A stretch of DNA of 64,000 nt from Thozetella sp. PMI_491 (taxonomy: Eukaryota > Ascomycota > Sordariomycetes > Chaetosphaeriales > Chaetosphaeriaceae), in contig MU270045.1 of the NCBI GenBank assembly GCA_021432635.1, positions 274,867 through 338,866 of the forward strand, read 5' to 3'. Each line of letters opens with the position of its first letter. The stretch's first letter is position 1. Both the position numbers and the translations under genes were made by a program. The notes under the pieces were generated by a model. It was not told the DNA's origin, did not search any database, and saw only the letters and a list, made by a program, of their open reading frames with translations. Below, piece after piece: positions 16,254 through 58,748 of this stretch.

Positions 16254-19200
16254 CTAACAGTAACTGGCAGTATGTCGCAATAGGCACGACTGAAAAGAAC
16301 ACAGCCGGGTTACGCCTAGCCCAACTTCATCACATAAAACCCGGGTTAGATCCTCCGGTTGGGATCCATTGCGAATAACCCCTGTAACTAATTGATGGAC
16401 ATCGGTGTCTAGTCTTTCGGCTTTCTGGCTCCTGCCTTCATGGTACGGCAGGGACAATCTTTCAATGATGATGTTGAGCAGACGGGCCTCAATTTCCGCA
16501 TCTACCCTCCTGGCGCATGTTGTCCAGTCCGCTGAGGTGCCTACCCCTACTGCGATGACGCGAGCGGCGGATGGCTGTGGGACCCAACCCCTCTCAATCA
16601 TGAACTGGGCAAGGCATTGCCCGAAGATGCCCACCTGTAAGGACCGCGCAAGATACTCCAAGGCTTCCCTTGCTGGTATACGGACCAAAACGGTAGGCAT
16701 ATATAGCTCCTGATTGGCGGTTGTTTCAGCCATCTGGAGAAAGGGGATGCCGTCTGCGTCTCTCATGGCCCCTTCATAGAACAAACAGTAGACTGGCTCA
16801 TTTATGTCTGCTCCACAGTCTACAAAATGGCCGATGGTTGAAACTGATCCTTGGCAAAAAGTTCTGTCACTGTGAAAAGAATCTCGGTTCACCCACTCAG
16901 TTATCGAGGAGAGGTATGAGTGGAAAGGCGATTCAGGCTCGAAATATCCTTTGCACATGTCCGAAAGTCTCAAGTCTAAACCCCGCTGTTGTCCGGTCCT
17001 GAGTAAGGCATTGATAATTTCAAGAGTACGTTGAGTGGTAGGTAAAACAGAAGATAAAACTTCCTTCAATACGCGTCTTTCGAGTTCCAGGATACCACTG
17101 AACCTCGGTGGGGTGAGAAAATCCTTAAGAGACCAAGGACTTTCTTTATTCTCCAGCGAGGGCACAGCTCCTTCGGGGAAGCAATAGGTAAAAGACTGCC
17201 AGGTTTGGATTAAAGAAATATAAGTAGCCGAGGGCAACCCCCCCAATCGAGTGAGGAAAGTAAACCCTAGCGATATGTCCTTGATTCTGGAGACATGTGC
17301 AAACCAAGCCTCATCTACGCTGAACTGTAGGGTATAGAACGCGAAGCTTCGGCTAAGAAGGCTGTTGAGTATGCCGCAGCGGCGGGCTTCCGGCGAGGAC
17401 TGATCGAACCCCAGTATTGTCTGGCCTTCTAGGGTCTCTACTAAGAACTCTCGCGCCGTACGGTGAATGAAACGAACTTCAAGATCCGGGCATCGCTCTT
17501 CTTCCAATGGAGTCGGCATACTGTCATAGATCCCTTTGGAAAGCTCAAGAATTCCTGCACAGCGGATGGGGATACTGCGGTACACCGCTCGACATGCTTT
17601 TTTGACGGCTGCAGGGTTGATCGTTCTCGTAATAATCTCGGCCGTCACCGTACCGTCGCGATTGGCGGCTTGCACAAAGCTCCGCGAAAGAGCTAGGAGC
17701 GCCACTGTGAAACAGCTCGTAGATTGAGACTTGCATCGTGTGTCACCCATCTCTCTCCTGTAGTATACCAATGGCATTTCGGTGGGTATAAACTCCAGAA
17801 CGAGTTTGAAGAGCAACGCAGCTTCGGCTCGGTAAGCTTTTGTATCCGCATTGAGACGCTTCCACATGGACGCATAGAGGAGTTCTAGCCCACTAGGCAT
17901 CTCCTCAAGTCGTATGTGAATTGTCTTTCTGTCGTCTTCATTTGCAAAGCCTCTCTCTAGACTCCGTACTGCAAGGTGCGTCCAAAGGAACACGCCCTCT
18001 GACTTTTCGACAACCCGCTTGGCGAGCGTCTGGCGAGCCGTCTGAAGGACATGGGTGCCTTGGTTAGGACACATAACCTCATGGCACGGAAGATCTTCAG
18101 GGAATGGATGAACAGTCGAAGCAAATAGTTCGAGAGCATACTTGTACATGCCTGGCGATGTTAATAGGTGAAGACGAAGATGCGGCATTGAACTGAATGC
18201 GCTATGAAACGCCTGCTCTTGGCGGCTAGATATGGCCATTTTAGCCCGCGGAGCGCACGCCTGCATCTCTCGGAGCACTTGTAACAGCTCGTAGGGTCCA
18301 TCTTTGGCGTCTATCTCATCAAGCCCATCAAGGAAGGTGCAGACCTGGTGTTTTTCAGACGCCGAGGCCAACAAATGAATTAGGGCATCCTGCAACTCAC
18401 GACGCGACCAGTCGGTTTCAAATCTCTTTTTTAGAGAGTTTGGGAATTGCTCAAAGAGTTGGTTGATCAGCTTTCTGTCAGGGTCTTCGTCAAGGAGCTG
18501 GTAGAGAAGATTGCTGAGCAGACCATTGATATTGTGCTGCATCGGGTTGCCCATGAGGTAGAAGAAATGACTGAGGAGCAGTACCGTCTCGTTTGTTCTG
18601 CGACTGAGGCGTTGTTTTGTTTGGGGGTGTGAGTATAGATGCTTCATGAGGGTGCTTTTACCGGCTCCAGGTTTTCCCGAAATCCAATAGATTGGCTCGT
18701 CCGATGCAAGCCAGAGGCTAAAGCTATCCCAGGTTGCTTTCTTCGCATCTTTCTCGAAGCCCAACAGAACACAGTCATGATCTTGTTCGGTGCCACTCTC
18801 ATCACCTTCACCTTCTGATATTCCAAACAGCCAGTCGAAGGTCTGGGTGTGTGCTTCAGCTATTCCATTGACGCGTTCATTCCGTGAATGAAAGTCCAAG
18901 CTCGCCAGAATTTTGGTCCGTTTCATCTCTAGGTCCTGGATCGTTGCCGCCTCGCGAAGCTCCCGGGATATACGGTCTCTTGTTTCACCTTGTTCCAACT
19001 GTATGAGCTCTCTTGTGTCATGATGTTGTTTGGCGATGATGTTTTGTATAGTTTTGCTTTCTTGGATAGCATGGTCTCGGAGTGCATCTGAGTTCGCTTT
19101 GATCAGTGCTTCGAGAGTCGTATGTCCTCTCGAGCACTGCTGGATGAAATTGTACAGCGTACGCTCCATACCCTGGCTGCTCTCGAGCTGCAGCAGGTTA

Positions 19201-19747
19201 AGAGCGCTCTGCTGGTCACTGGTCAGCATGGTTAGCGCAGTACGCCATTGGTGGAGAGAATATGCTGAGGAGCATATTGACGGGTGAAGGTTGCTTACCA
19301 AACCCGAACTAGCAAACATGTTTCCAGGGTATCTTGGGCTCTTTTCAGCTCCTTCTCTTGCCTCTCAAGATTGCCCTTCTCCCAGAGTCTCTTGGGAGTA
19401 AGACGCACGGTTGCCATGACTCGAGATAGCTTGCCTTCGGTCTTAGATACTGGGCTTGACAACTTCTCCAGACTGCTAGAGAGCTTCGCAGATACCGTCA
19501 TACAACGTCCGGCGAGGTTTAGCAACTCGCTCTCCTCTGCAGTCACTGGCTTGTGAGCACTATTGAGAGACTTCTCGAGCGTCTGCGCGGTACTCCGCAG
19601 ATCCGCTGCCGTCGTAGCGAGGCCTGGATCGACAGATCCATCCTGATACAACTGTCTGAAGGACGAGATGACCTCACGTCCGAAGTCAATCGTTTGCATG
19701 ACATTGCAGGCAATGCCGAAGACGGCCAGCGGCTCAAGACCCGACAT
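16254..19747 (-). CDS. NLR-type STAND protein: helical N-terminal domain plus NACHT NTPase
   Basis: Two exons (19747-19299, 19218-16254) give 1137 residues. The N-terminus (MSGLEPLAVFGIACNVMQTI) is the start of the fungal STAND N-terminal domain related to HeLo-like, death-inducing helical bundles. A long heptad-rich stretch follows (about 150-290). The NACHT NTPase has its P-loop GKPGAGKST at 331-339 and its Walker B FLDGLDEID near 445-453. Next comes the winged-helix-like region usual for this class (FIHRTAREFLVE). The C-terminal 450 residues show no ankyrin, WD40 or TPR repeats. In fungi such proteins sense non-self and can trigger regulated cell death. The 80-nt intron with a CTAAC branch site joins the domains in frame. 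No truncation is visible. Confidence 0.85.
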
Positions 19748-41318: not shown

Positions 41319-41353
41319 CTACCATCGACTCAAACTTAGTCGGTCTGCTATCG
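41301..41353. repeat. Two-copy 26/27-nt tandem duplication at the 3' end of the NLR fusion gene
   Basis: Units 41301-41327 and 41328-41353 share ACTCAAACTT(T)AGTCGG and the following bases, differing by one T insertion and two substitutions. The gene's stop codon (41321-41319) lies inside the unit read second. See the finding on altered C-terminus. Confidence 0.8.
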
Positions 41354-44300
41354 ACGCCCAGGATTCCATCCCTTGTTCACAGAGAAAGGCCCCAAGTTTG
41401 TTGAAACTGGTAAACCCTTCTTGTAAAGCATACCAACGGTCCCAGCGACCCTGCGAAACTAGCTTTTCGAGCAGTTCCTTCGGATTTGCACCAAATTCAT
41501 AGCCTGCCTGCGCGTGGATAAATGCCCTGTTTAGAGCATATGAAGCTAAGGCCGGATATTCCTGCAAGGTCTGGGATTTTATCGATGCCGCCTTAGTGTA
41601 CCGAGAGATATCCCCGACAGTGTTTTTGGGATGGAGCTGCGATTGGCTAGGCAGTAGCGCCATATTCATGTTATCCGAAGCACGCTGCGAGTCGAATTCG
41701 GCGTTATGGTCATTCCTTCTATCCCATGATACTCTACTCTGCCGACTGAGTATCACACTCTTTGGTGTCGGTGGCGGTATAGTCGCTGATGAAACGAGGT
41801 CAGGAACGTTTCTAACCGCGGCTCGAAGTGCGGACTCTGTAGCCACACTGAGGCTTGGCTGAATAAATCCAGGGCTATCGTCTGATGATAAAATTACCTT
41901 CTCTTCGTGTTTGAGCTTGTTTATCTTGGCTCCAGTATGATTGTGACACTGCAAAAAGCTCAGAAAAAATCACCATAGCAATACAAGTCGAGACAGGTTG
42001 CATGGAAAGATAATCACCTTGTAGGCGTGCCTGAACCAAGTAGAGCCCTTTTTCTTGCTGACCACAATCTTGATCCAATCGTCGCAGTTATCGCACAGGG
42101 CTTCCCAAAGGTTGGATTTGCCATCTATGCGGCGGAACTCGATGGGTTCATTGAATGGTTTCCCCGACGAGGGGCTTATTCCATGCGTGAAACACCTATG
42201 GTACCAGAATTCGGCGGTCTTCAACAGAAACCATCGACCTGGCTTGCATATACCGCACCAGCCCTCTTGCTTGCTTTCATTTCCGCGCACCCATTTGGCA
42301 GTATATAGATCGCCGTCGAAGCGGGGGTTCTGCTCGTTCGGGACGAGATCAGGATCCCGCGGGCTCATATCCTCCGGCGGTGGTGGCACTTGGTCCTCCT
42401 GTAATGATACGTACAGGCCAGGCGGCGCGTAGGAATCAACGCTGGGGTTGGACAGCAGGTGAGAACTGGGATTAAGCGGTGATGATGGTACACTCTCAAA
42501 CGACCGTGCATCCTCTTCGTATGGAATGGTCTCAGTGCCGCCAGTGTAATGCTGGGATTGTGACGGCCGAGAAGTGTGATACAACGAGCCGGTACTTTGG
42601 CGTCGACCTTGGTTCCGAGACACGATCGGCGGAATGCGCGGGCTAGCTGGTGCACTAGAGTACGGAGTAGCATGATGGCTTCTGGGTTTTGCCGAACGCA
42701 GAGAGTGCGCTGACGCCGACGACATGAAACTTGTGGTACTTTGGCGATGACGCAGTAAGTGCCTCGCTGGGGCGATCGGAGATGTATCGAGGGAATCAAA
42801 ATTTCCGATTCCGACGGCCGTTGTGGGTGATAAAGCACCATAAGAGGACAGGCCGTCCAGTGTTCCCGAAATTATTTCGAAAGAGGACGATTCGAACGGA
42901 GGACTTGGTATGTAGCTGGCATTGCTGGGGTCCTGCAGATCTAATATGGGAATGGCATCATCGGAGATAAACACCTCCCCAACGGACTCCCCATCAATGG
43001 CCTGGCTATCCTCGAGTATATTCGCAGAAGGATGCACATCCTCCTGAAGCTGACGTGCAGCAACAAGGTCATCGAGTTCTTGTATGCCGATGTAGTCTAA
43101 GCACGTTTCGGCAATGAGGAGGTGACCACCTCCAACAAAGTCGTAGCCGGTATCAAGACCAAATAGTAAATTCGCGTGGCCATCAATGAAGAATTGCGCC
43201 ACCGTCTCGTGGATCGGTTGCACGATTCGACTATCGCCAGAGTTACTGTCGAGGGAACCAGCGCCTGCCAGGACTGATTCGCCGTCACTCGTTGTCTCAA
43301 GAACATCGACTCCGGCTTTAATCTCCACCAAACCTTGTGAGAGGTTTCGTATCTGTCGTTCCAGCTGAATGTCTGTTTCTGTGTAATGAACCGACTCCTT
43401 CCACTCCTTCAGAGAGGATGGAAAGGGATCTCGAATAAATGCAAGAATATGGTGCCATTCTCCAACTCGGAGGCGACCAGTAGTCAGGGTTGCCCAGTAG
43501 AATAGCCGAAGTGCTGTACTGCGCTCGGTCGGGTCTATCCCCTGGAGGAGGGTACTGAAGAGATCTTCGAGTGCCTTGGGAAGAGCCGTAGTCCGCTGGA
43601 GAATATATTTTGTGTTTTTTCCGTTCTCAACATCCTTGAGCACTCCTTCCACGGCAAGAATTACCCACAGGAAAATACCGTTGGACCTCTCGGCAATTTT
43701 ATCTTGGAGAAGCTGCGCGTCTTCTGGATTAAGAACTTTCGGGTCGAGCTTCAGCTTTTGTTGGATATATTGTTGGATATCCCTCTGGTTAAATGCTTCC
43801 ATATTGATTTGGAGGCTATCTCGGATGGTGAGCGAAGGATATTCCCGTCTTGACATGCAGATATTGAGCTTGACATTGCTCTCATAAGCTGATCTAGCAA
43901 GCTTTCCGAGGAAATAGCCAGTTTCCAAGGCTTCGTCAGACTCGCATTCGTCGAGAGCGTCAATCAAAATAATAGTCTTCCGCGGGGCATATGCTTGGTT
44001 TGAGAAGATTTCCAACAGGATTGACTTGAGCTTCTGCAGATAAGATGCATGATCGGCAGATTGTAGTGCTTCCAGTTCATCTAGCGAGTGTTCCATCACT
44101 GGGCCCAGGCTGGCAGGGTGGAAGGCACCAATTTGGTAAATTAGGGCATGAAAGAGGCCCTGGGCGGAATGTTCCAACTTTGTTCCTCGCTTGTTAAAGA
44201 AGAAACTGGCTACGAAAACATTGTGTTTTCGGGAAGAAGACCGTGTAGTATCGTAAAGGTGCTTCATCAACGTCGACTTGCCAGATCCTACTTTCCCGGT

Positions 44301-46027
44301 AATCTGAAGGAGGCCGGCGTGCATAGAAACGTTCTTTTGGTTAATCCAGTCGTTGAACGCAGGAGTCCGGGGCAGCCAATTGCAGGTATTCTCAGCAGCT
44401 GCACTGATCAGATGTTGCCTGAGGTGCATTTCTGTGAAGCGGAAGTATTCGAGCAATTCTACAAACAACAGTGGGCTTAGTATAAGGTCAATGATGCTTT
44501 GACTTGGGGTCCTACCTCGATCAGCCTGACTCAGCTCGGCAGACTTGCCGGTCGGTAACTTCAATTCAGCTGTAGAGCTCCCAGAGAGCCTTGGGGGCAA
44601 AGCTGAGCAAATAGCTAGTATCTCGGCAGACACTTTTCTGTAGTTCGTGTCTGACGCACTCGCGTACCGGCACATGGACCTGTGGTCGGCGTCGAGAGTC
44701 TCGGCCCGTTCCCGCGAATCTCCCAAGCAGGACGACATATCGGGGACAACCTACGGAACCAAAAGGCATTAGCTTGCTTTATCACTGTGAGTGTGTGGGA
44801 AGCAAAACACCTTCGACATTCTAAATTGTCCCAATCGAAGAGGCAAGCTAATCGGAAGGCCCTCCTGGAATGTCTTTACGCGGAAGTTGTGCCTGTGCCA
44901 CAAGGAGGAAAATGCATCCTGGCAACGGTCTAGATCTGAGTTCTTTAACGACAAACTACCGCATCGAGCGTTAGCGATTGTTTTACATGGGTCTGGCAGA
45001 AGATTAAAGGTCAAGTTTGAGGGCGGCCTCCTCATCCTGGGGCAAGACGTCACGCGACAGGTCATACCTTTCCAGCACAAGTGGGTTCGTGTCCATCATG
45101 AGCAAGCTAGCAGCCCTGCGTGCAATCTCCCCTATTCCCGCCGCGGAGCTTCCTCTATGCGGTGTTCCGAGAAATACGATGCCGGCTGTGCTCTGTAGGA
45201 TGTTCTCAAACTCTTCATTGCTAGACGTTGAGCATATTGCAAGCATCTGTGGGCCGGTTAGCTACCATAAACGGTGCACATGGATGCATGTGTTGCAAGC
45301 GACGGGACTACGGTGCATAAAATATACCTCTTTGACCACAATACCACCAAGTGAGTGCGCCACAAATAAGATCGGTCTATCTTGAGGCCGCGAGCGACCG
45401 ATGTCATTGGCAAGATTCTTGCTGTGGATGAATATGCTGTTCTTGTTTGCGGCCCCGGCAAACTGGTGTTTTGCGATAACAGTGTCATAGCCGAACATTA
45501 GTACTCGCGCATCAGGACACCGAAGGGGGAGAAGATCGCGTGGCCAGAAGACATATCGATTCCTATCGGCCAGAGTAGGCTCTTGGCTTTTCTTTCCTCG
45601 GCTGAGTCGTGAGACTATACCCTTCAGCTTCAAGGATGTCTTGCCACTACTTCTAGTAGTAGTTGAGCTGAATGTTGACGCTGTACCCTCTTCAACGGAA
45701 ACTGAGTCGTCTCCACCGCTACCATGGACTTCTAGAGCCCATGTTTTGAAGGGATGGCCCTGGAGACCATGGATGAAGACAATGCTGGGCTGGTAAGCGC
45801 TGAAGCGCGTCGTGGCTCTGGACGTTACGCGCCGCCTCAAGAAAGAAACAAACATACTCTATTACAGGCTCAAGATGCTCTGGCTCATATACGACAGATA
45901 TTCCGGCGTTCGCGACCGCCTCTCGTGGTACGAAGGCTGACACAAGCGGGGGTGTGGTCGAGCCGCGCGTTCTGAAAGTCCTGTTGTCATAACCCGGTGA
46001 GATGGTACCGGGAGCAGTGGGTTCCAT
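41319..46027 (-). CDS. NLR fusion: SesB alpha/beta-hydrolase + NACHT NTPase + Rua1-type C-terminal zinc domain
   Basis: Seven exons (46027-45858, 45799-45328, 45246-45068, 44955-44811, 44750-44516, 44458-42018, 41948-41319) total 4272 nt, 1423 residues. All introns have GT/AG ends and consistent phase, including a 57-nt in-frame one with a TACTAAG branch site. Domains: SesB-type serine esterase with VFIHGLQG (64-71), nucleophile S206 in AHSLGG and FLGTPHRGS, then LSLKNSDL and VKTFQEGLPI; NACHT with P-loop GKVGSGKST (455-463) and Walker B IILIDALDE (563-571); FLWVILAVEG and the HETVAQFF winged-helix region. Instead of repeats, a Ser/Pro-rich linker from about 880 leads to a Rua1-type domain (about 1115-1220): GWCGICKPGRWF (C1135, C1138), SFTHGI-like CFTHGI, CDNC (C1189, C1192), GSTWFRHAYK then CHNH. 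The long open exon covers the junction, so no gene boundary is needed. Role in non-self recognition is inferred from SesB-NLR family knowledge. Confidence 0.85.
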
Positions 46028-47495: not shown

Positions 47496-49307
47496 ATGGG
47501 CCACCTCAGAGCACTCGCAGGTCTTTTGTTAGCAGCCAGCGGAACAGTCAAAGCAGTTGTTCCTATCACAGCGAAGGTACTTGCCCTATCCTGACGAGCT
47601 CAAATTGAAATAAGGAATCGAATTAACCAATAATCTATTCAGGGTCAATACCTCTTCACTCCAAATGGCACGCAGTTCTTCATTCGAGGCGTGGCTTACC
47701 AACAGGGCGTTGGGGTTGGTGGTCAGGTCGACCCCGGAACACAATCTTTCATCGATCCTTTGGCGGATGCAACAAGCTGCAAGCGCGACATACCGCTCTT
47801 ACAGCAGCTCAACACCAATACAATCCGGGTATATGCGGTAGACCCGACAGCAGATCACTCGGAGTGCATGACGGCGCTAGACGCCGCGGGCATCTATGTT
47901 ATTGCGGACCTCGGCGCACCCGCTGATGGCGATTCCATCAATCGAGACACGCCTGCGTGGAACACAGCATTGTTCGATCGGTACAAGGGCGTCATCGACA
48001 ACCTAGCCACATTCCCCAACACGCTCGGTTTCTTCGCCGGAAACGAAGTCACCAACAACAACACGAACTCAAAGGCATCTGCCTACGTCAAGGCCGCAGT
48101 GCGCGACAGCAAGGCGTACATAACTTCGAAGAATGTTGGCCGCTGGATCGGTGTGGGATATGCAACTAACGATGACGCGGGCACTCGCGACTTGCTGGCT
48201 GACTATTTCAATTGCGGCGACCAGGCAGCAGCTGTGGACTTTTGGGGTTATAATATCTATGAGTGGTGCGGTGAAAGCACATTCGAGACAAGTGGCTACA
48301 AAGAGCGCACCGATGCTTTCCGGAACTTTTCCGTCCCAGCATTCTTCTCTGAATATGGGTGTAACAACCCAGGAGGTGGTGAGGCTCGCATATTCCAGGA
48401 GACGCCCGTGCTCTACAGCAGCCAGATGAACACGGTATGGAGTGGCGGCATCGTATATGAGTTCTTCCAGGAACAGAATGACTTTGGTAAATACTAGCCG
48501 CCTGAACCTGAATATCCTCGTCGCTAACAATACCGATCAGGTCTGGTGTCCGTTTCCGGTGGGCAGGTGTCGCCTCGCAAAGAGTTCACCGTTCTCGCCA
48601 AGCAGCTCGCAACTGTCACGGCCAGCGCGAGCACCAACCAAACGCAGCGAATGAACACCTATACACCCACAAATGTTGCCCGAGACTGCCCCAAGGTCGT
48701 AGCCGGAAACTGGGAGGCGGCGTCGGCGTTGCCTCCTACCCCGAATGCCACTGTCTGCGACTGCATGGTGCAGTCACTCCAGTGCGTCATGTCGACTAGC
48801 GTCAAGGCGGAGAGCATGGGCTCCATTTTTGGAACTGTCTGTGGTCTTGATGCTAAGGCTTGCGACGGCATTGCGTCCAATGCGACCACAGGCACGTACG
48901 GTGCGTTCAGCATGTGCAGCGGCGCACAGCAGCTGAATCATGTGCTTAACCAGTACTACGTGAACCAAGGAAAAAGCAAGTCGGCTTGTGATTTTGGCGG
49001 GCAAGCCCAGCTGCTAAGCTCAGCTCAAAGTCTCAATTCCACGTGCACAGCAGTCCTCCAGCAGACATCTACGAGCGGGACAGGTACTAGCAGCTCTTCT
49101 GGTGGCAGCTCATCCAGTGGCAGCACCAGTGGAGGCTCAGGAGGTAGCACAAACGGGAATGGGGTGGCAAACAGTGGAAACTCGACTGGTTCTACGGCGA
49201 ATTCTGCCGCATCCAGCTTGTTTGACCTCAGGGGAACGGGCAAATATCGGGATATAATGAGTTATATGACAACCTTCGTTATGCTTGGAGTTGCACTTGT
49301 AGTATAG
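47496..49307 (+). CDS. GPI-anchored beta-1,3-glucanosyltransferase, GH72 with X8/CBM43 domain (Gas/Gel family)
   Basis: Three exons (47496-47576, 47643-48486, 48541-49307) give 563 residues. The enzyme cuts and re-ligates beta-1,3-glucan chains to elongate wall glucan. The first exon encodes the signal peptide (MGHLRALAGLLLAASGTVKA). The GH72 barrel has acid/base E162 in FAGNEVTN and nucleophile E264 in FFSEYGCN, close to their positions in yeast Gas proteins. An X8 domain follows (about 365-470), with CDCMVQSLQCV and other paired Cys. Then comes a Ser/Gly-rich O-glycosylated spacer (about 480-530) and a C-terminal hydrophobic segment preceded by small residues, the GPI signal. It acts at the plasma membrane/wall interface. 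Presence of X8 puts it in the GH72+ subgroup. Confidence 0.96.
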
Positions 49308-51493: not shown

Positions 51494-54400
51494 TCAACCT
51501 TCCATCTCCACCGCGCGTGTCACTCCTGCGAGCGGCTGGTGATTTTGCCCACCGATCCGACTTCCACACTCCGGGCAGAGCGCTTCTTCCATGGGCATGC
51601 CGCATTCTCCGATGGCAAATGGATGCCCATTTGCACAGTTGTACCAATGTCCTGAATGCGTTCTCAAGCCATCCGGGCCACTGACCATCGCCACCTTGAT
51701 GGACGCCAATTCCTCGGAGCTCAGGCCGGCCAGGATTTTCTTCATCTTTAATATTAAATCTTGGAGATTATCACTGTCTTGCAGCGGGCCACACATGTCC
51801 AGAGCCTGATCGAGAAGTTCTCGAGCAGTATCCTTGTAAGAAGTCGTCCTGGTTGTCCCGGAAGAGGTACTTGTACCGTCGAAGGAATCGCTGCAATTCG
51901 CGATGCGGGCATAGCAGATGATCGCCTGGATAGCGAACCTGGGTAGATTCTGGGCCATTGCTTGTTCGATATATGAGTAACAACTCTTCATGAACACCGG
52001 AGCCAGAATTCCAGGTGCGCCGAAAGGCATCTTGAAGCCCTCCTCGTCTGCAAACGTGTTGCTGCTCAATACGGTGAACTTGTCTCGTATCACGATAGCC
52101 TGGATTCGCAGCTGTATGATACAGGCACCAAGCAGCAGCTGCTCGTTGAAGACGGGTGCATAGGCTTCGAATGGAGCAATCGAGACATCAAGGCGGCTCA
52201 TCCGTTCTTCTAACGATACAGCTTCCTGTCCATACGTGCGAACTGCGTCGAAGAGCTTCTTGACTGGTTGGTTCTGTTTGTCAAACATCTGTTGCAGGGT
52301 CCTGGCTTCCTTCTCAAGCGTCTGGGCGGCTGTGTACCTCTCCCGAAGCTTTTCCTTGAGCAGCTGTCGTTTCGGCAAGTTTGCAAATTGCTCTTCGAGT
52401 TTCCCTGCCATTTCTTCGAGTGCGTCAAGCTTGGCGCGTCCGCTGAGGTGAAACCTCTTCGAAGTCTCGTCCATGACAGCCCTGTTGATAACCCGGTTAT
52501 ACCTTCTGGTAGCGAACTGCCTGATGGGACATTTGCAATCTGGACACGAAGGCACGCCACTAGACATGACTGCCGAGAAATTCTTTAGTCCGTGGAAATT
52601 GCCATACTTGTCAGTGGTATACACCTCGCTCATTCCGACGAGGCCATCCAGGGACTCCGGGGTGAAGAAGTGGCCGCAGCCGAGAACCACAATGGGCGTC
52701 TCATCGAGATCGATGTCGCGGTAGATCTTGAATTCTAGAAGGTCCACCCTAGCTTCATGCTTGTCGGCGTCACAGACTTGGCAGTATCCCTGAGGACAGT
52801 CCTCTCCGCATAAACTGGGGCACTGGTGTCCGCATTTAAGTGACCGTTCGCAACGTTCATCACAAGGCAGACGAGTGCACGGAGCTGCGCAGGGCATATT
52901 GCAAGAGCCCTGGTGCTTGCAAGACCACGCGCATTTTTCAATGCATGGGGCACACGGTTCGCTGCACTTCTGAGCGCATGCTGAATGGGGGCACTTCACC
53001 TGGCAGCGCGCATCGCAGCTACCGCACTTTTCCCCTGGGTGGCATTTCTTGCGGCATGAGTGGTTGCAGGCATCATACTGCCGACCGCACCGCCTGGTAC
53101 AAGGCTTGTGCTCGGTCATCGTGCCTTTGTCGGATTTCGAGCTGCACGTACCGCACGTACCGGGGCAAGCATGGCCGCATGGGAGAATCATTGTGCAGGG
53201 TACGTCGCAGCGGAAGTCGTCGGCGGACACGTCCACGCGACACTCCTCTTCAACGGCGTGGCCACAGCCCGGTACAATCTTGACAACTGTTTGCAGGCAT
53301 GGAATGGCCTTGAGATTCTGCAGCTGGTAGCACTTGATGTCTTTTGCATGGGCACATGGAAGCAGAGCATCCTTGATACCTACCATGCAGGATCCACAGG
53401 CTGCACCGCACAGCTTCGGACAAGCGTGCGAGCAGGTAGACCGAATTCTCTGGCAAGGCTGTGGACAGGAGAATGTATCATGCATGCCTTGGGAGTGGCA
53501 CTTTGCCTGGCAGCGATGTCCACATGCATCCAAGCGACGCTCACACGGTAACGCGCAGCCTCCTTCCGGAGCTTGAATAAGGAAGTCATCAGGTTCCGAG
53601 CATGAGATGATAGTGTCCCGGTGACGTGGGCAGCATAGCTGGAAGGCGGTTCCGACGGCATCCACATCAGCTAGCTGATCGTGGATCTGCGCCCACATCT
53701 CGACATTGAGGTAGGTCTCAGCATTCCCAATCAGGAACATGCCATGCTGCGCGCGGCTAACCAGCACGTTGATGCGATTTTCGGTACGGAGGAAGCCAAC
53801 TTTCTTCTGCTTGTTGGCGCGAACCAAAGAGACAATGACGATTTTAGCCTCCTCTCCCTGGAAGTTGTCCACGGTGGCGAGCCGTATGAATTCACCGAGT
53901 TTCTTCTTCTGCAAAGGTTTGTGAGATTCCTTCACGTCACCTTCCGCGGTCTCTCCTTCGAATCCATCTGCGGCAAGGGCTTCTTTGTCTCGGTCGCTCA
54001 GGGCCACTTCGTAGTCTTTGCTTAAGAGGCCTCGTAACTTTTGCAGCTGTCCGGTGTAAGGAGTCAAGACGGCAATATCTTCTGATTTGTACTCTCCTTG
54101 GCGTACGATGTGGCGCACTAGGGCCTTTGTCATGCACGCCTCCCATTCGTTGCTGTGGGATTTCATGAGGTGCTTGTCATCAGAGTTATCCTCCATGTAG
54201 TCGTGGTCAAGCCAGAAGACATTGTTTCGCATCCCCACCACGTCGGGCAGGCTCTGGACCGTCTCGTGATCTTGAAGGTGTGGGTAGATTCGATGAATAA
54301 GCCTCGAAATCTCCGGGCGCATGCGGCGCTGGATGTTTAGCTGCGCGACAGGGGCTGGGCGCATCCCTTGCTCGCCTATCGCCCGCCGCTCGAACTGGCT

Positions 54401-57349
54401 TCTATCGAGCTGGTAGGGCTGTCCGGCAGCTGACTCGAGGCTCAATGAATGGTTGTTGATTTGCGGCCGCAGCTGTCGATGATCTCCGATCTGGATAAAA
54501 TGTTCAAGGCCGGGCATCAGCGCCGAAATAATATGCGGCTCCAGCACCTCACCGGCTTCCTCGCAGACGACAACCTTTGATCGCAGTCGCTTGAGCACGC
54601 TGATGTTACGGGCAAGCCCTGTCGTAGTCACACCGATAACGTCCGCAGAAAGCAACGTGCGACGATGGACTTCGTCGTGGATGTCGTTGATGTTAGATTG
54701 GACCTTCTCCGCAGCGCTAGTGAGTTCCACGAGATCATCCGTGGCTTCCTCGCAGAGTTTCTTCATCCAGTGTTTTGCAAGGGCCTGTCTTTCCCCTTGT
54801 AAAAGGGTCTGGAGGTTTAGTCTCGCCCGGTGCAGAAGCGCATCAATGTCGGTTTCGCTGTATTCCGGGGTGGCAGTACGAAGACCTCCGTTGAGCCAGG
54901 CGACTATTGGATCCTTGTCGCCGACCACTTCAAACCCGTCTTCATCGTGACCGTACAGCGAGAATAAGGTGTGCAAAGTAGGTTCTCGGATGGCTAAGTA
55001 ACGATCCAGCAACTTCCATGTAGGCCAGCCTGCTGCGCCGTGCAGGGGCCTCAAGCGATATCCTGCGTCCTTCAGATGTTCCTCAAGATCGGAATAATTC
55101 TTGCCCAGAAGTTGTCCCTCTGTGCGAGTCCTCGGAGTCTCCTTGCTGACTTCCTTGAGGTTCCTTCCTTCTAGTTCATTGCATCGGCTCTGCCCACCGA
55201 TACGAATAATTTTGTTAATGCCCACGGCGTCGAGGTGCTTGAGGAACTGATCGAGGGCGTGGTTCGTGTAGCAGCTGAACAAATGTTAGCAGAGCATTCA
55301 TATTCGTAGGTAATAGTACTGGATTCTTATTAAAACTTACATGACAATGATAGGACCAAGTCCCGCGGTCTTCCTATGGGTATGGGCAACCAGAACCTGT
55401 AGTAGCTTAACGCCCAGGTAGGACTTCCCAGTGCCAGGCGGACCCTGGATCAAGACGTACTCTCGTTTCAAGGCTGCAATCAACGCTTGACACTGACTCT
55501 GGTTGAGGCCCGTCCTTGCCTCGAGTTGGTCAAGGTCGGTATCATCGGTTGCCCCTGGTCTGAGTGTCAGGTCTCGGCCCCCAGTTAGGTCAATAGTGTC
55601 CAGCCGAAAGAGGAAGCCCGGCTGCCGCGTATATTCCGGAGGGGGGATATGTGCAATAGTCTTGGCACCGGCGACCCGAAATCTCCGTACGGTAGATGGA
55701 ACAATCCATTCGTGGAATGGAAGCTCTCCAGCTTGAAACATAGCTTGTAAGTTCCGGAGGATGGGAGCAAAAGTAGCGGGTATGAGAGATGGCAAGTCAA
55801 CTAGAATTCCTTGCGTTTTCTCACTGTACAAGCGGACCAGGCGACGGCAGTCCTCCTGATCACCAGAAACGAGTTTCAAGGCTATCGATGGTTGATGATG
55901 GTCAGACACTAGAGAGCTCGCTTTCTGCTTTTGGAAGGTGTTCTTCTCCGCCACCGTCATCAACAACGCACAGGCTCTGCCGTTTTCGTTGGCCACGAAA
56001 CACGCCAGCCCTCCCTCGGCGAGACGAGGCGATTCGTTCCACCAGCGAGACTGCTCCTCCTTGGGTTTACCCTTCAGTTGCGGGAGCGGGGCGAAAGATG
56101 CATGCGCCACTAGCCCTCGCCTCTCTTCCACGGCTAAGTGTCCAATACGAGCACGTGGATAATGGAATGCTCTTATCTCACCACCACGAGGTACGGCATG
56201 AGTCCCAGTGCCTTCGCTAATATTGTGCAGCAAGCTGTACAAATGATCCTTAAGAGGACCGAATATATCGTGACGTAGGAGGCGAAAGGACGAATCAATG
56301 TACCGCTGGATTGGGTTCGTAAGGAAGTGAGGGCGAAGGAAGTTCGTAGATGGTAAGTAGTCGGACTCGTCGCTCATAATCTCGTCGAGGGTGGGGAGGA
56401 TCCGGATCTGAGAGATGTCGTGATGGTCGTTATCATGCCGACCTCCCGGAGGTTTGATCTCCAGGGGAAAATTGGAAGTCACGGCGAGTCGGGGAGCCTT
56501 GGGGTCCAGTGTGAGAGTTGTCGTGGTCAAGAGCCCGGAAGCGCTTTTCAAGATTTGCTTCATAGTCTCGATCCGATTGGCGGAGCTCCGAGGAGCGCCC
56601 GTAGCTTCGACGGCCTCGTCAAGCAGATCGAAGAGTCCTTGGAGGTCGTCATTGAATAAAACGCGTCTTTCACGACGAACAATTTCATAAAGCGCCTTCG
56701 AGATCGAAGTCAGGATCTCTTCAGGGTTAGATGGTACGGCGACGATGTGCCTCTGGGACTTATCCCCGAGTTGACGGCAGAGCAACGAGAAATACGGTAT
56801 TGCGCGTTGGCCGTTGTAGCCGGCTATGAAGTTGTACAACGTGCTGACGTAGGTCTCTATCGAGAGACAGTCCAGTAGAGCTGTGTGGGTTATGACCTTC
56901 AAGAAGTCGCGAGTTGTCGGCCGCCATGCTGCGATGTCATCGTGCTCGATATCCATGGTAGTGCGCACTAGCTTCAGTCCATTATTGTCGTCACTGACAA
57001 GGGTCTTGACGACCAGCTGCTGGATCTCACGGTCCTCGCCGTCCAAGATTCCGACAGTTTGCTCCCAAATTCTGCCGTCAACTACCGTATCAGTGGTGTA
57101 GTAAGAGAGCAACCGTTTCCAGTTGTGGTAATCATTCCGAGCTAGGTTGGCTTCCACATTACGGGGCGTGTCGGAACCTTGACTGGAACTATCGTGCGAG
57201 TATTTGCAATCGGATCCGAATCTGCATCGACCATGGTCCATGAAATAATGGCACGGCCCTTTGGCTGTCGGGCCTCTGGTGGTCCCTCTCTCGCTGAAGT
57301 GACGTCGAGGGGTGGTAGAGCCGCGCCAGCTGTTGCTTCCTCGAGGCAT
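51494..57349 (-). CDS. ZNFX1/Hrr1-like NF-X1 zinc-finger helicase (SF1) with CCCH and RZ-type fingers
   Basis: Two exons (57349-55341, 55274-51494) give 1929 residues; the 66-nt intron splits IIVICYTNHALDQFL. Order: CCCH finger at 33-52 (CHYFMDHGRCRFGSDCKYSH); an alpha-helical region; SF1 helicase with GPPGTGKS at 636-643, DEAG-like VVCEEAGEVLEPH, GDHRQLRP, QRRMRPEIS, and TVDNFQGEEAKIVIVSLVR with LVSRAQHGMF; then many NF-X1 type Cys/His units (CGHRCQAKCH, CGHACPGTCG, CGHQCPSLCG); a coiled region; and a C-terminal RZ finger (1878 onward: C1883, H1887, C1903, C1906). This is the architecture of animal ZNFX1, an RNA-silencing and antiviral factor. S. pombe Hrr1, in the RNA-dependent RNA polymerase complex, is a relative. 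An RNA-helicase role in silencing is therefore inferred. Start ATG at 57349; longer frames need TTG. Confidence 0.93.
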
Positions 57350-58748
57350 TTTGGTTTGAGAATATCTAGGAAGCTTTTGGCAAAATTTGACACAATATGA
57401 TGGGGTTGGCTTATGGGGTATCTGCTGAGAAGGAGAGCACTCTAGTATCAGCAAGCAGTCGAGCTGTGATGATGGGAAAGGGGCAAGGAGAGAGAAAAGG
57501 AATGACGGAGCAACTTAGGCTGCATTTTGTGCAGTGACACAGGGACAGAGCCCTGTTAGTGCGGATTTTGCAGCCTGATGATATTTGCTGGACCTCAGAG
57601 GCCCGCATACGAAACCATGTCTCTGTTGGTGGTCGGCCTCATGCAGGCGGCCAATCAGCGGTTTTGGAGGGGGTCGTTGCACGCAAGGCCAGGCGGTCCA
57701 AGACGCGCGCTGACACCCAACGACGAAGAAAAAAGCCAGGTGCGGCAGACTGGAGCCTAAAGAGTAGGCCTCACTCTATACCAACTCGAAATCTCGAAGT
57801 GCGATTGGTGGCATATTTCATGGCCAGGCGCGGGAACTGGAAAGACCCTGGACACCGTATGCCTGGCCCTCTCAGCCTGGTCGCAGTCTTCATATCCTCT
57901 ACAACATGCCTGATTGAGATCAAGTGACACCTCCAGAGACCAGATTCCTGGTAGACGATTATCGTCTAAGTTGCCACTATTAGATCATTTCCTAGCCCAC
58001 AGCAGCTGGATATACAACAAAGCTCTTGGCTGGTAGCGTGGGGATGGAACGGTCACTGTCCCAGTGACGGGCTAACAGGGCTATCAACGATCTAGTAGGA
58101 CCTTTTCCTGGCTTGGGAGTAGGACCAGTCGCGAAGTATACAGGACAGAATCCATATCGTTATATTAACCAGATCAAGAGACTCTAATCGTTGCTATCGT
58201 CGTCCTGAAATTTGTCTCGCTCTCCCTCTACTTTGCATAGTTTATTCCCTAATAAATTAACCTCGCCGATATGCTAGAGCTCTTCACCCTTTTTATTAGC
58301 TTGAATCGGACTCACTCCTATCACTGCTCTAAGGATAAACTCTTTTATCTTCAAGGTTTTCTGAGAAGCAATCTCCTGGACATGGTAGGAAAAAAGATAA
58401 AGTCTTCCCTTGAAACAATGTTCTAGTAATTACATACGCTCGATAAAGAGACACAATGCTGGGTAGTGTTGTGTTCCGTCCACGAGCCGTACTCCGTACT
58501 CGATGATGTCGTATCGTCAACTTCAGTGTCCCCTAAACTGAGCTTAAACGCCGAGTGGCATAAAACAAATCCATCGCCAGCATACTTTACATCGAAAAGA
58601 ATAAAGGGAACAGTAAACTCCAATCTTTATTCGGTGATTTATAGGATATTATGTTTGCAAGTAGTATAGAAAAACTTCTCGTTAAAGCGATAACTAGCCA
58701 TAGAAAAACAGTCAAATGTATGACAAATCTAGATCAGCTTCTGCGTGT
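57350..58748. other. Intergenic region, 1.4 kb
   Basis: Promoter of the helicase gene and 3' flank of the P450. AT content rises to the right. No coding sequence supported. Confidence 0.45.

Follow-up and report, generated by a model that had tools for sequence, protein, structure and literature searches.

A single gene on the minus strand of the 64,000-nucleotide (nt) window analyzed here, a stretch of contig MU270045.1 of the ascomycete Thozetella sp. PMI_491, encodes a NOD-like receptor (NLR) of the SesB-NACHT type whose linker contains an in-frame stretch most likely inserted from the C-terminal part of a Rua1-family regulator gene. We put the chance that this insert works as an integrated decoy slightly above even. 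The gene (46027-41319) has seven exons that join into one stop-free frame of 1418 amino acids (aa). Residues 1112-1211 match the Pfam family Rua1_C at 71.5 bits (Pfam cut-off 27) over positions 5-122 of the 122-position profile (118 positions) and carry its Cys/His set, as expected of a member of the Rua1_C regulators. Throughout the genome searched (72.3 Mb, 157 contigs, the source of all relatives described below), Rua1_C was located at only two places, this window and a gene that we call C13; the gene studied here is C31. C13 is a stand-alone frame whose sole Pfam match at E ≤ 1 is Rua1_C (74.5 bits). A first-pass annotation of the window had proposed that the domain was copied from a transcription-regulator-type gene. 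C13, a stand-alone paralogue of the Rua1 part in the same genome, bears this out: it is 67% identical to the NLR copy over 136 aa (63% over 152 aa in the genome search, from about aa 1058) and shares an intron position with it. The domain is thus traceable to an identifiable host protein, as in an integrated decoy. Residues C1130, C1133, H1154, C1184, C1187, H1206, C1210, H1211, and H1213, which presumably bind metal, are all common to C13.

The shared intron is intron 6 of the NLR gene. C13 has an intron of 66 nt at the same codon and in the same phase (K/CH; CACGCCTACAAG/GT...AG/TGTCAC), while six of six NLR paralogues run through this interval stop-free, so that none of them needs an intron there. 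An intron common to the regulator gene and unneeded in the NLR family probably arrived with the insert, and transfer as genomic DNA is the most likely explanation. The copying appears to have run from regulator to NLR, because the six NLR relatives lack Rua1_C and the domain family takes its name from a stand-alone regulator.

NLR sequence resumes after the insert. A query from K1209 to the end of the protein, searched against the whole genome at E ≤ 10, returned nine rows: itself, six NLR loci (C12, E 2.3e-28; C5, 5e-10; C9, 8e-7; C43a, 6e-6; C2, 1e-5; C43b, 1.4e-4), and two weak rows (E 0.3 and 0.8). The same six are, among the matches listed, the top NACHT relatives of this gene, with 58, 38, 41, 39, 39, and 37% identity in the same order. 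One open frame holds both NACHT and the tail stretch in all six, with the stretch 375-873 nt downstream from the match to NACHT. The Rua1 piece is therefore internal, placed in the linker between the ELDDLVAAR motif and the YPALASYA segment, and the NLR frame extends to either side of it as judged from these six closest paralogues, which is the arrangement of an integrated decoy. Comparison of aa 1210-1335 with the tail of C13 gave no significant score (803 of 1000 shuffles were as high); the only C13-like stretch past aa 1210 is KCHNHTG (KCHTHPK in C13), and no source was identified for aa 1216-1316.

Gene structure, receptor modules, and the missing repeats

The claim of the first-pass annotation that one splice-consistent frame spans the locus was borne out, with its count of 1423 codons corrected to 1418, and its 2441-nt exon (44458-42018), open across NACHT, linker, and Rua1, proved exact. 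All six introns are GT-AG, with lengths of 57-112 nt. Where the model has introns 1, 2, and 4, the tblastn alignment with paralogue C12 is broken, as judged by eye, and at the position of intron 3 C12 is continuous in that alignment. An acceptor at 44993 was rejected because it breaks the frame; the acceptor at 44956 restores the frame and agrees with the continuous reading of C12, C9, and C5. One could suppose that the fusion is only apparent and that the NLR, the regulator fragment, and the NLR remnant are separate genes or were brought together by an assembly join. We consider this highly improbable and reject it because NLR sequence picks up again after Rua1: NACHT and Rua1 share one open exon, the end of Rua1 and the NLR tail share the last exon, the frame is intact on both flanks, the tail belongs to the same NLR family, and the window contains no N letters.

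The translated model, submitted to the domain search that had been proposed for it, gave NPHP3_N, NACHT, and Rua1_C above their Pfam cut-offs and DUF676 below. The nucleotide-binding core expected of a fungal SesB-NACHT NLR is present (NPHP3_N, 95.2 bits, cut-off 24.8; NACHT, 37.9 bits, cut-off 26.7), and aa 396-868 share 37-58% identity with the six paralogues. We would presume, from the usual NLR layout, that aa 599-864 hold a winged helix; this interval has no Pfam match, and no Pfam model marks a winged helix in it. The esterase part scores below threshold for DUF676 on its own (17.2 bits; cut-off 20.3) and is assigned to the N-terminal SesB/alpha-beta hydrolase class through its lengthwise alignment with paralogue C9, whose DUF676 match passes (23.7 bits). 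It retains the motifs AHSLGG and DHRSMCRY, which we take to be the nucleophile and histidine motifs, respectively. A search for solved-structure relatives gave a superoxide dismutase as the best hit to the Rua1 part (E 0.15, taken as chance) and nothing at E ≤ 0.1 for the 926-aa frame, and the two Rua1 sequences have no relative in a prokaryote collection, as expected of a fungal domain. The NACHT search of the genome yielded 190 candidates, of which 86 were scored (87 rows with the studied gene). Beside two NACHT matches lie open frames of >20000 aa, one of which exists because the stretch is largely N and hence has no stops.

The first-pass annotation had also held that the sensor repeats of the receptor were replaced by Rua1. 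This does not stand: the Rua1 piece is internal, the pre-ankyrin segment continues past it, and the sister receptor C12 is ankyrin-less and has no Rua1_C either, so we reject a C-terminal sensor replacement. In four of the six paralogues (C5, C9, C2, and C43b) ankyrin repeats come after the tail stretch, and the gene studied here ends about where those ankyrins begin. No repeat family (ankyrin, WD40, TPR) was found at its C terminus at E ≤ 1 in the Pfam scan, and no ankyrin remnant across 5.3 kb downstream (best E 0.087). The C-terminal repeat sensor of SesB-NACHT NLRs is thus absent, as it is from C12, in which no ankyrins (2.5 kb downstream included) and no Rua1_C (genome search and Pfam) were detected. 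Because C12 lacks both, the gain of Rua1 and the loss of ankyrins are separable, and the ankyrin loss is best read as an event apart from the insertion. The frame of C43a (L048:4081-6192), another NLR of the clade, also ends without ankyrins, and none was found in 3.7 kb downstream (best E 0.30).

The linker of this receptor and of its sister C12

Upstream of Rua1_C the linker holds a further donor-like stretch, block A, with the core DDAIPILDL (aa 895-903; DEAIPILDL in C13). Residues 870-960 score 72 against the C13 protein, compared with 35.2 ± 5.9 for shuffled versions (0 of 1000 as high), and tests with five shuffle types, some of them windowed, had 0 or 1 of 1000 reach the score of block A. 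Residues 870-1070 alone find C13 by blastp at E 4e-5 with composition adjustment, and when the NLR linker minus the Rua1 domain was compared with 44 frames, own gene excluded, C13 came out on top (z 6.1; next 2.9). Between block A and the Rua1_C-bearing block B lies STTSFMSSASAHS, which is identical to C12 at 12 of 13 positions; a motif of this SF-x-S-A type occurs in seven of seven linkers of the NLR family.

In a tree of 14 NACHT rows (C96 left out, C52a and C22 included), our gene groups with C12 as its sister at 100/100 support. Their linkers are the longest, at 476 aa here and 320 aa in C12, the other five paralogues having 136-246 aa. The C12 linker resembles the C38 protein, which matches GATA_AreA (43.4 bits) and DUF3295 (519.8 bits): it scores 114, compared with 50.4 ± 8.1 for shuffles (0 of 1000 as high), none of 1000 shuffles of each of five kinds, window shuffles among them, reached that score (the nearest was 106), and among the 44 frames C38 ranks first after the C12 frame itself (z 6.9; the one after it 3.3). 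Pairwise phmmer gave E 2.4e-7 with a bias of 7.9 bits, and blastp gave E 1e-9 without composition adjustment and nothing with it (best E 0.8 to 2.8). The whole-genome search gave E 0.028, and the DUF3295 match of the linker stays under the cut-off of 25.8 bits (21.7 in Pfam, 15.5 in the genome search). Linker residues 201-318 are not significant by shuffling (69/1000), though the Pfam match lies there, and two motif groups are ordered differently from those of C38. On this mixed evidence, derivation of the C12 linker from a DUF3295 protein is possible to likely.

None of the other five paralogue linkers matches the C38 protein (z -0.9 to 0.9, 300 shuffles each), and as capture cases they were set aside, with no clear source for any. 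Those of C43b and C9 had genome matches to themselves only; those of C5, C43a, and C2 were compared with the C13 and C38 proteins. The C9 linker gave a marginal value against the C13 gene, which we do not count (z 3.1, 3/300), and the C12 linker reached z 2.1 against the whole C13 protein (10/300). Also on C2 (L060:3313-5367, minus strand), a 685-aa frame that has no other annotation ends in a DUF3295 segment (42.9 bits; cut-off 25.8). In the genome search this match extends beyond a stop, and the frame is possibly another fusion with a protein of this kind, an interrupted one, or one with an unrecognized intron.

Features of the receptor gene and of its sister C12. Coordinates are window positions except where a locus is named.
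Feature	Coordinates	Strand	Basis
Whole gene, 7 exons, 1418 aa	41319..46027	-	Frame and splice model, C12 alignment
Exons	46027-45858, 45784-45328, 45246-45068, 44955-44811, 44750-44516, 44458-42018, 41948-41319	-	
SesB-like alpha/beta-hydrolase, aa ~40-390, intron-interrupted	44532..45910	-	Pfam, paralogue alignment
NACHT/NPHP3_N nucleotide-binding core, aa 419-598, Walker A GKVGSGKST	43851..44390	-	Pfam
Remaining NACHT module up to ELDDLVAAR, aa 599-864	43053..43850	-	Paralogue comparison
Donor-like linker block A, aa ~878-935	42840..43013	-	Shuffle tests, blastp
STTSFMSSASAHS, NLR-family linker motif, aa 969-981	42702..42740	-	Paralogue linkers
Donor-derived block B, aa ~1075-1215, includes Rua1_C, intron 6 inside	41931..42422	-	Pfam, C13 comparison
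Intron 6, 69 nt, after K1209	41949..42017	-	Gene model, C13 comparison
NLR pre-ankyrin segment, aa 1317-1413	41337..41627	-	Genome search, paralogues
Sister NLR C12, linker GATA_AreA/DUF3295-like	G000:C12:896352-898934 (L045:4760-7438)		

Elsewhere in the window, a further NACHT-type NLR frame lies at 16254-19364 on the minus strand (NPHP3_N, 86.8 bits; DUF7791, 39.9). Next to our gene, on the opposite strand (47634-49307, plus), are frames that match GH72 glucanosyltransferase and X8. Two adjoining minus-strand frames at 51494-57514 match AAA_11/AAA_12 helicase, RZ-type, and CCCH zinc-finger families and resemble what we take to be an NFX1-type helicase gene.

Possible roles of the insert

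Under the integrated-decoy reading, this genome's Rua1-family regulator gene would have contributed its C-terminal part, intron included and in frame, to the flexible linker that joins the NACHT module to the pre-ankyrin segment. Any factor, foreign or endogenous, by which a Rua1-type regulator is bound or altered would then also encounter the NLR copy. This encounter would free the NACHT switch from autoinhibition, the protein would oligomerize and its SesB esterase would be activated, and the esterase activity would lead to cell death. We see roughly an even chance that the insert is a bait that releases NACHT and esterase in this manner. The intact Cys/His set, a Rua1_C score near that of C13, and a low ratio of nonsynonymous to synonymous divergence (dN/dS) between the two copies argue for it, together with the gene structure, the NLR sequence on either flank, the finding of Rua1_C at two places only, the identity and the intron shared with C13, the further donor-like stretch upstream, the CHK2-type precedent in the Sordariales described below, and, on mixed evidence, the regulator-like stretch that C12 may carry in its linker.

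Several observations weigh on the other side. Block A is not listed in the whole-protein blastp or in the genome search, and its pairwise phmmer E value is 1 (0.002 for the best stretch). Taken alone, residues 961-1070 show no significant likeness to the donor (343 of 1000 shuffles scored as high). The NLR motif STTSFMSSASAHS sits between donor-like blocks A and B, which speaks against taking a single clean insertion for granted. The history is possibly more complex, with two captures or recombination at a later time, or the placement is due to chance. The dN/dS between the NLR copy and C13 (dN 0.225, dS 1.25, ratio about 0.18; Nei-Gojobori method, 146 codons) is a pairwise value that includes the donor's own constraint and comes with a high dS; for NACHT compared with C12, synonymous sites are saturated. 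A fold predicted for the Rua1 part from the single sequence had a mean predicted local distance difference test (pLDDT) score of 45.8 and is unusable.

An alternative is a neutral passenger, a Rua1 piece that sits idle in a disordered, permissive loop open to in-frame insertions while the receptor works without it. Linker length does appear to be tolerated, since it ranges from 136 to 476 aa among the seven paralogues. We nevertheless regard an idle piece as unlikely, given the intact Cys/His set, the near-donor Rua1_C score, the low dN/dS, though pairwise, and, in the corresponding slot of C12, a possible second stretch that resembles a regulator, for which the evidence is mixed. The Rua1 part might instead be a DNA-binding arm that brings the NLR to promoters, with activation altering transcription instead of, or besides, driving the esterase. 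NLR activation changes transcription in the case of CIITA and RRS1, and here the naming of the family after a transcription regulator and the intact Cys/His set fit this idea. However, the NLR copy lacks the basic KRRR run found just after the domain in C13, and an enzymatic output is favored because the catalytic-type esterase motifs are kept. Action on DNA is possible, less likely than a decoy, and in our estimate distinctly improbable.

An allorecognition role, in which the Rua1 copy would pair with polymorphic partners of the fungus's own Rua1-type regulator and a mismatch would lead to incompatibility, seems to us a long shot. In its favor, the characterized fungal NLRs respond mostly to small endogenous proteins (PMC10197012). 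Beyond the integrated-decoy reading itself, a wider proposal treats the linker as a capture slot of this NLR clade, in which the two sisters independently took Rua1-type and GATA_AreA/DUF3295-type pieces as exchangeable baits, lost their ankyrins, and came to use regulator mimicry as the sensor. We put this forward tentatively, as something that may well turn out otherwise.

Significance and relation to known systems

The ligands of fungal NLRs are mostly unknown, and a putative bait whose donor gene can be identified in the same genome directs the search to factors that act on Rua1-type regulators by binding or altering them. If the C12 case is true, a GATA_AreA/DUF3295 protein becomes a second candidate target, and one linker in two sister receptors carries pieces of two unrelated regulators. 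How such a fusion forms can be read clearly from the common intron and from the NLR sequence on either flank, and the idea of integrated decoys can thereby be put to a direct test in fungi.

Extra domains, among them zinc fingers, have already been described in fungal NLRs. In the Sordariales, 185 noncanonical domains were reported in 378 NLRs, with zinc fingers in 57, and a CHK2-type kinase was put forward as an integrated decoy (PMC12258605). Among open-licence PMC texts we found none on Rua1_C/PF14616, on NACHT with Rua1, on DUF3295 with an NLR, or on a fungal NACHT NLR with a transcription factor domain. We do not claim Rua1_C in NLRs as unreported, because this search covered open-licence texts, without the supplementary domain list of PMC12258605. 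Rua1 of Ustilago maydis, which regulates the ustilagic acid cluster, has Rua1_C in common with our gene by Pfam name; it is stand-alone and not an NLR (PMC10098057).

The receptor is like the SesB-NACHT-ankyrin NLRs (Dyrka et al. 2014, PMC4986451) in its esterase-like N terminus, NACHT, and pre-ankyrin segment, with six relatives in the same genome. It differs from them in that ankyrins are absent and a zinc-type regulator fragment lies in the linker. With the noncanonical NLRs of the Sordariales it shares an extra domain that resembles a host gene (CHK-2 in their case). Their extra domains are described as N- or C-terminal (PMC12258605), whereas here the domain is internal, the NLR resumes after it, and an intron is common with the donor-like gene. 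Characterized fungal NLRs have mostly small endogenous ligands, such as SEC-9 and HET-C (PMC10197012).

Among plants, NLRs with integrated domains include RRS1 with its WRKY domain and RGA5 and Pik with heavy-metal-associated (HMA) domains. They differ from the present case in kingdom, in having NB-ARC rather than NACHT, and in the esterase found here, and we have one clear and one uncertain case. They resemble it in that a regulator-derived piece would serve as bait within an immune receptor, in a clade with a preferred slot. Should the capture-slot proposal prove true, the clade of these two sister receptors would be a fungal counterpart of the major integration clades of plants.

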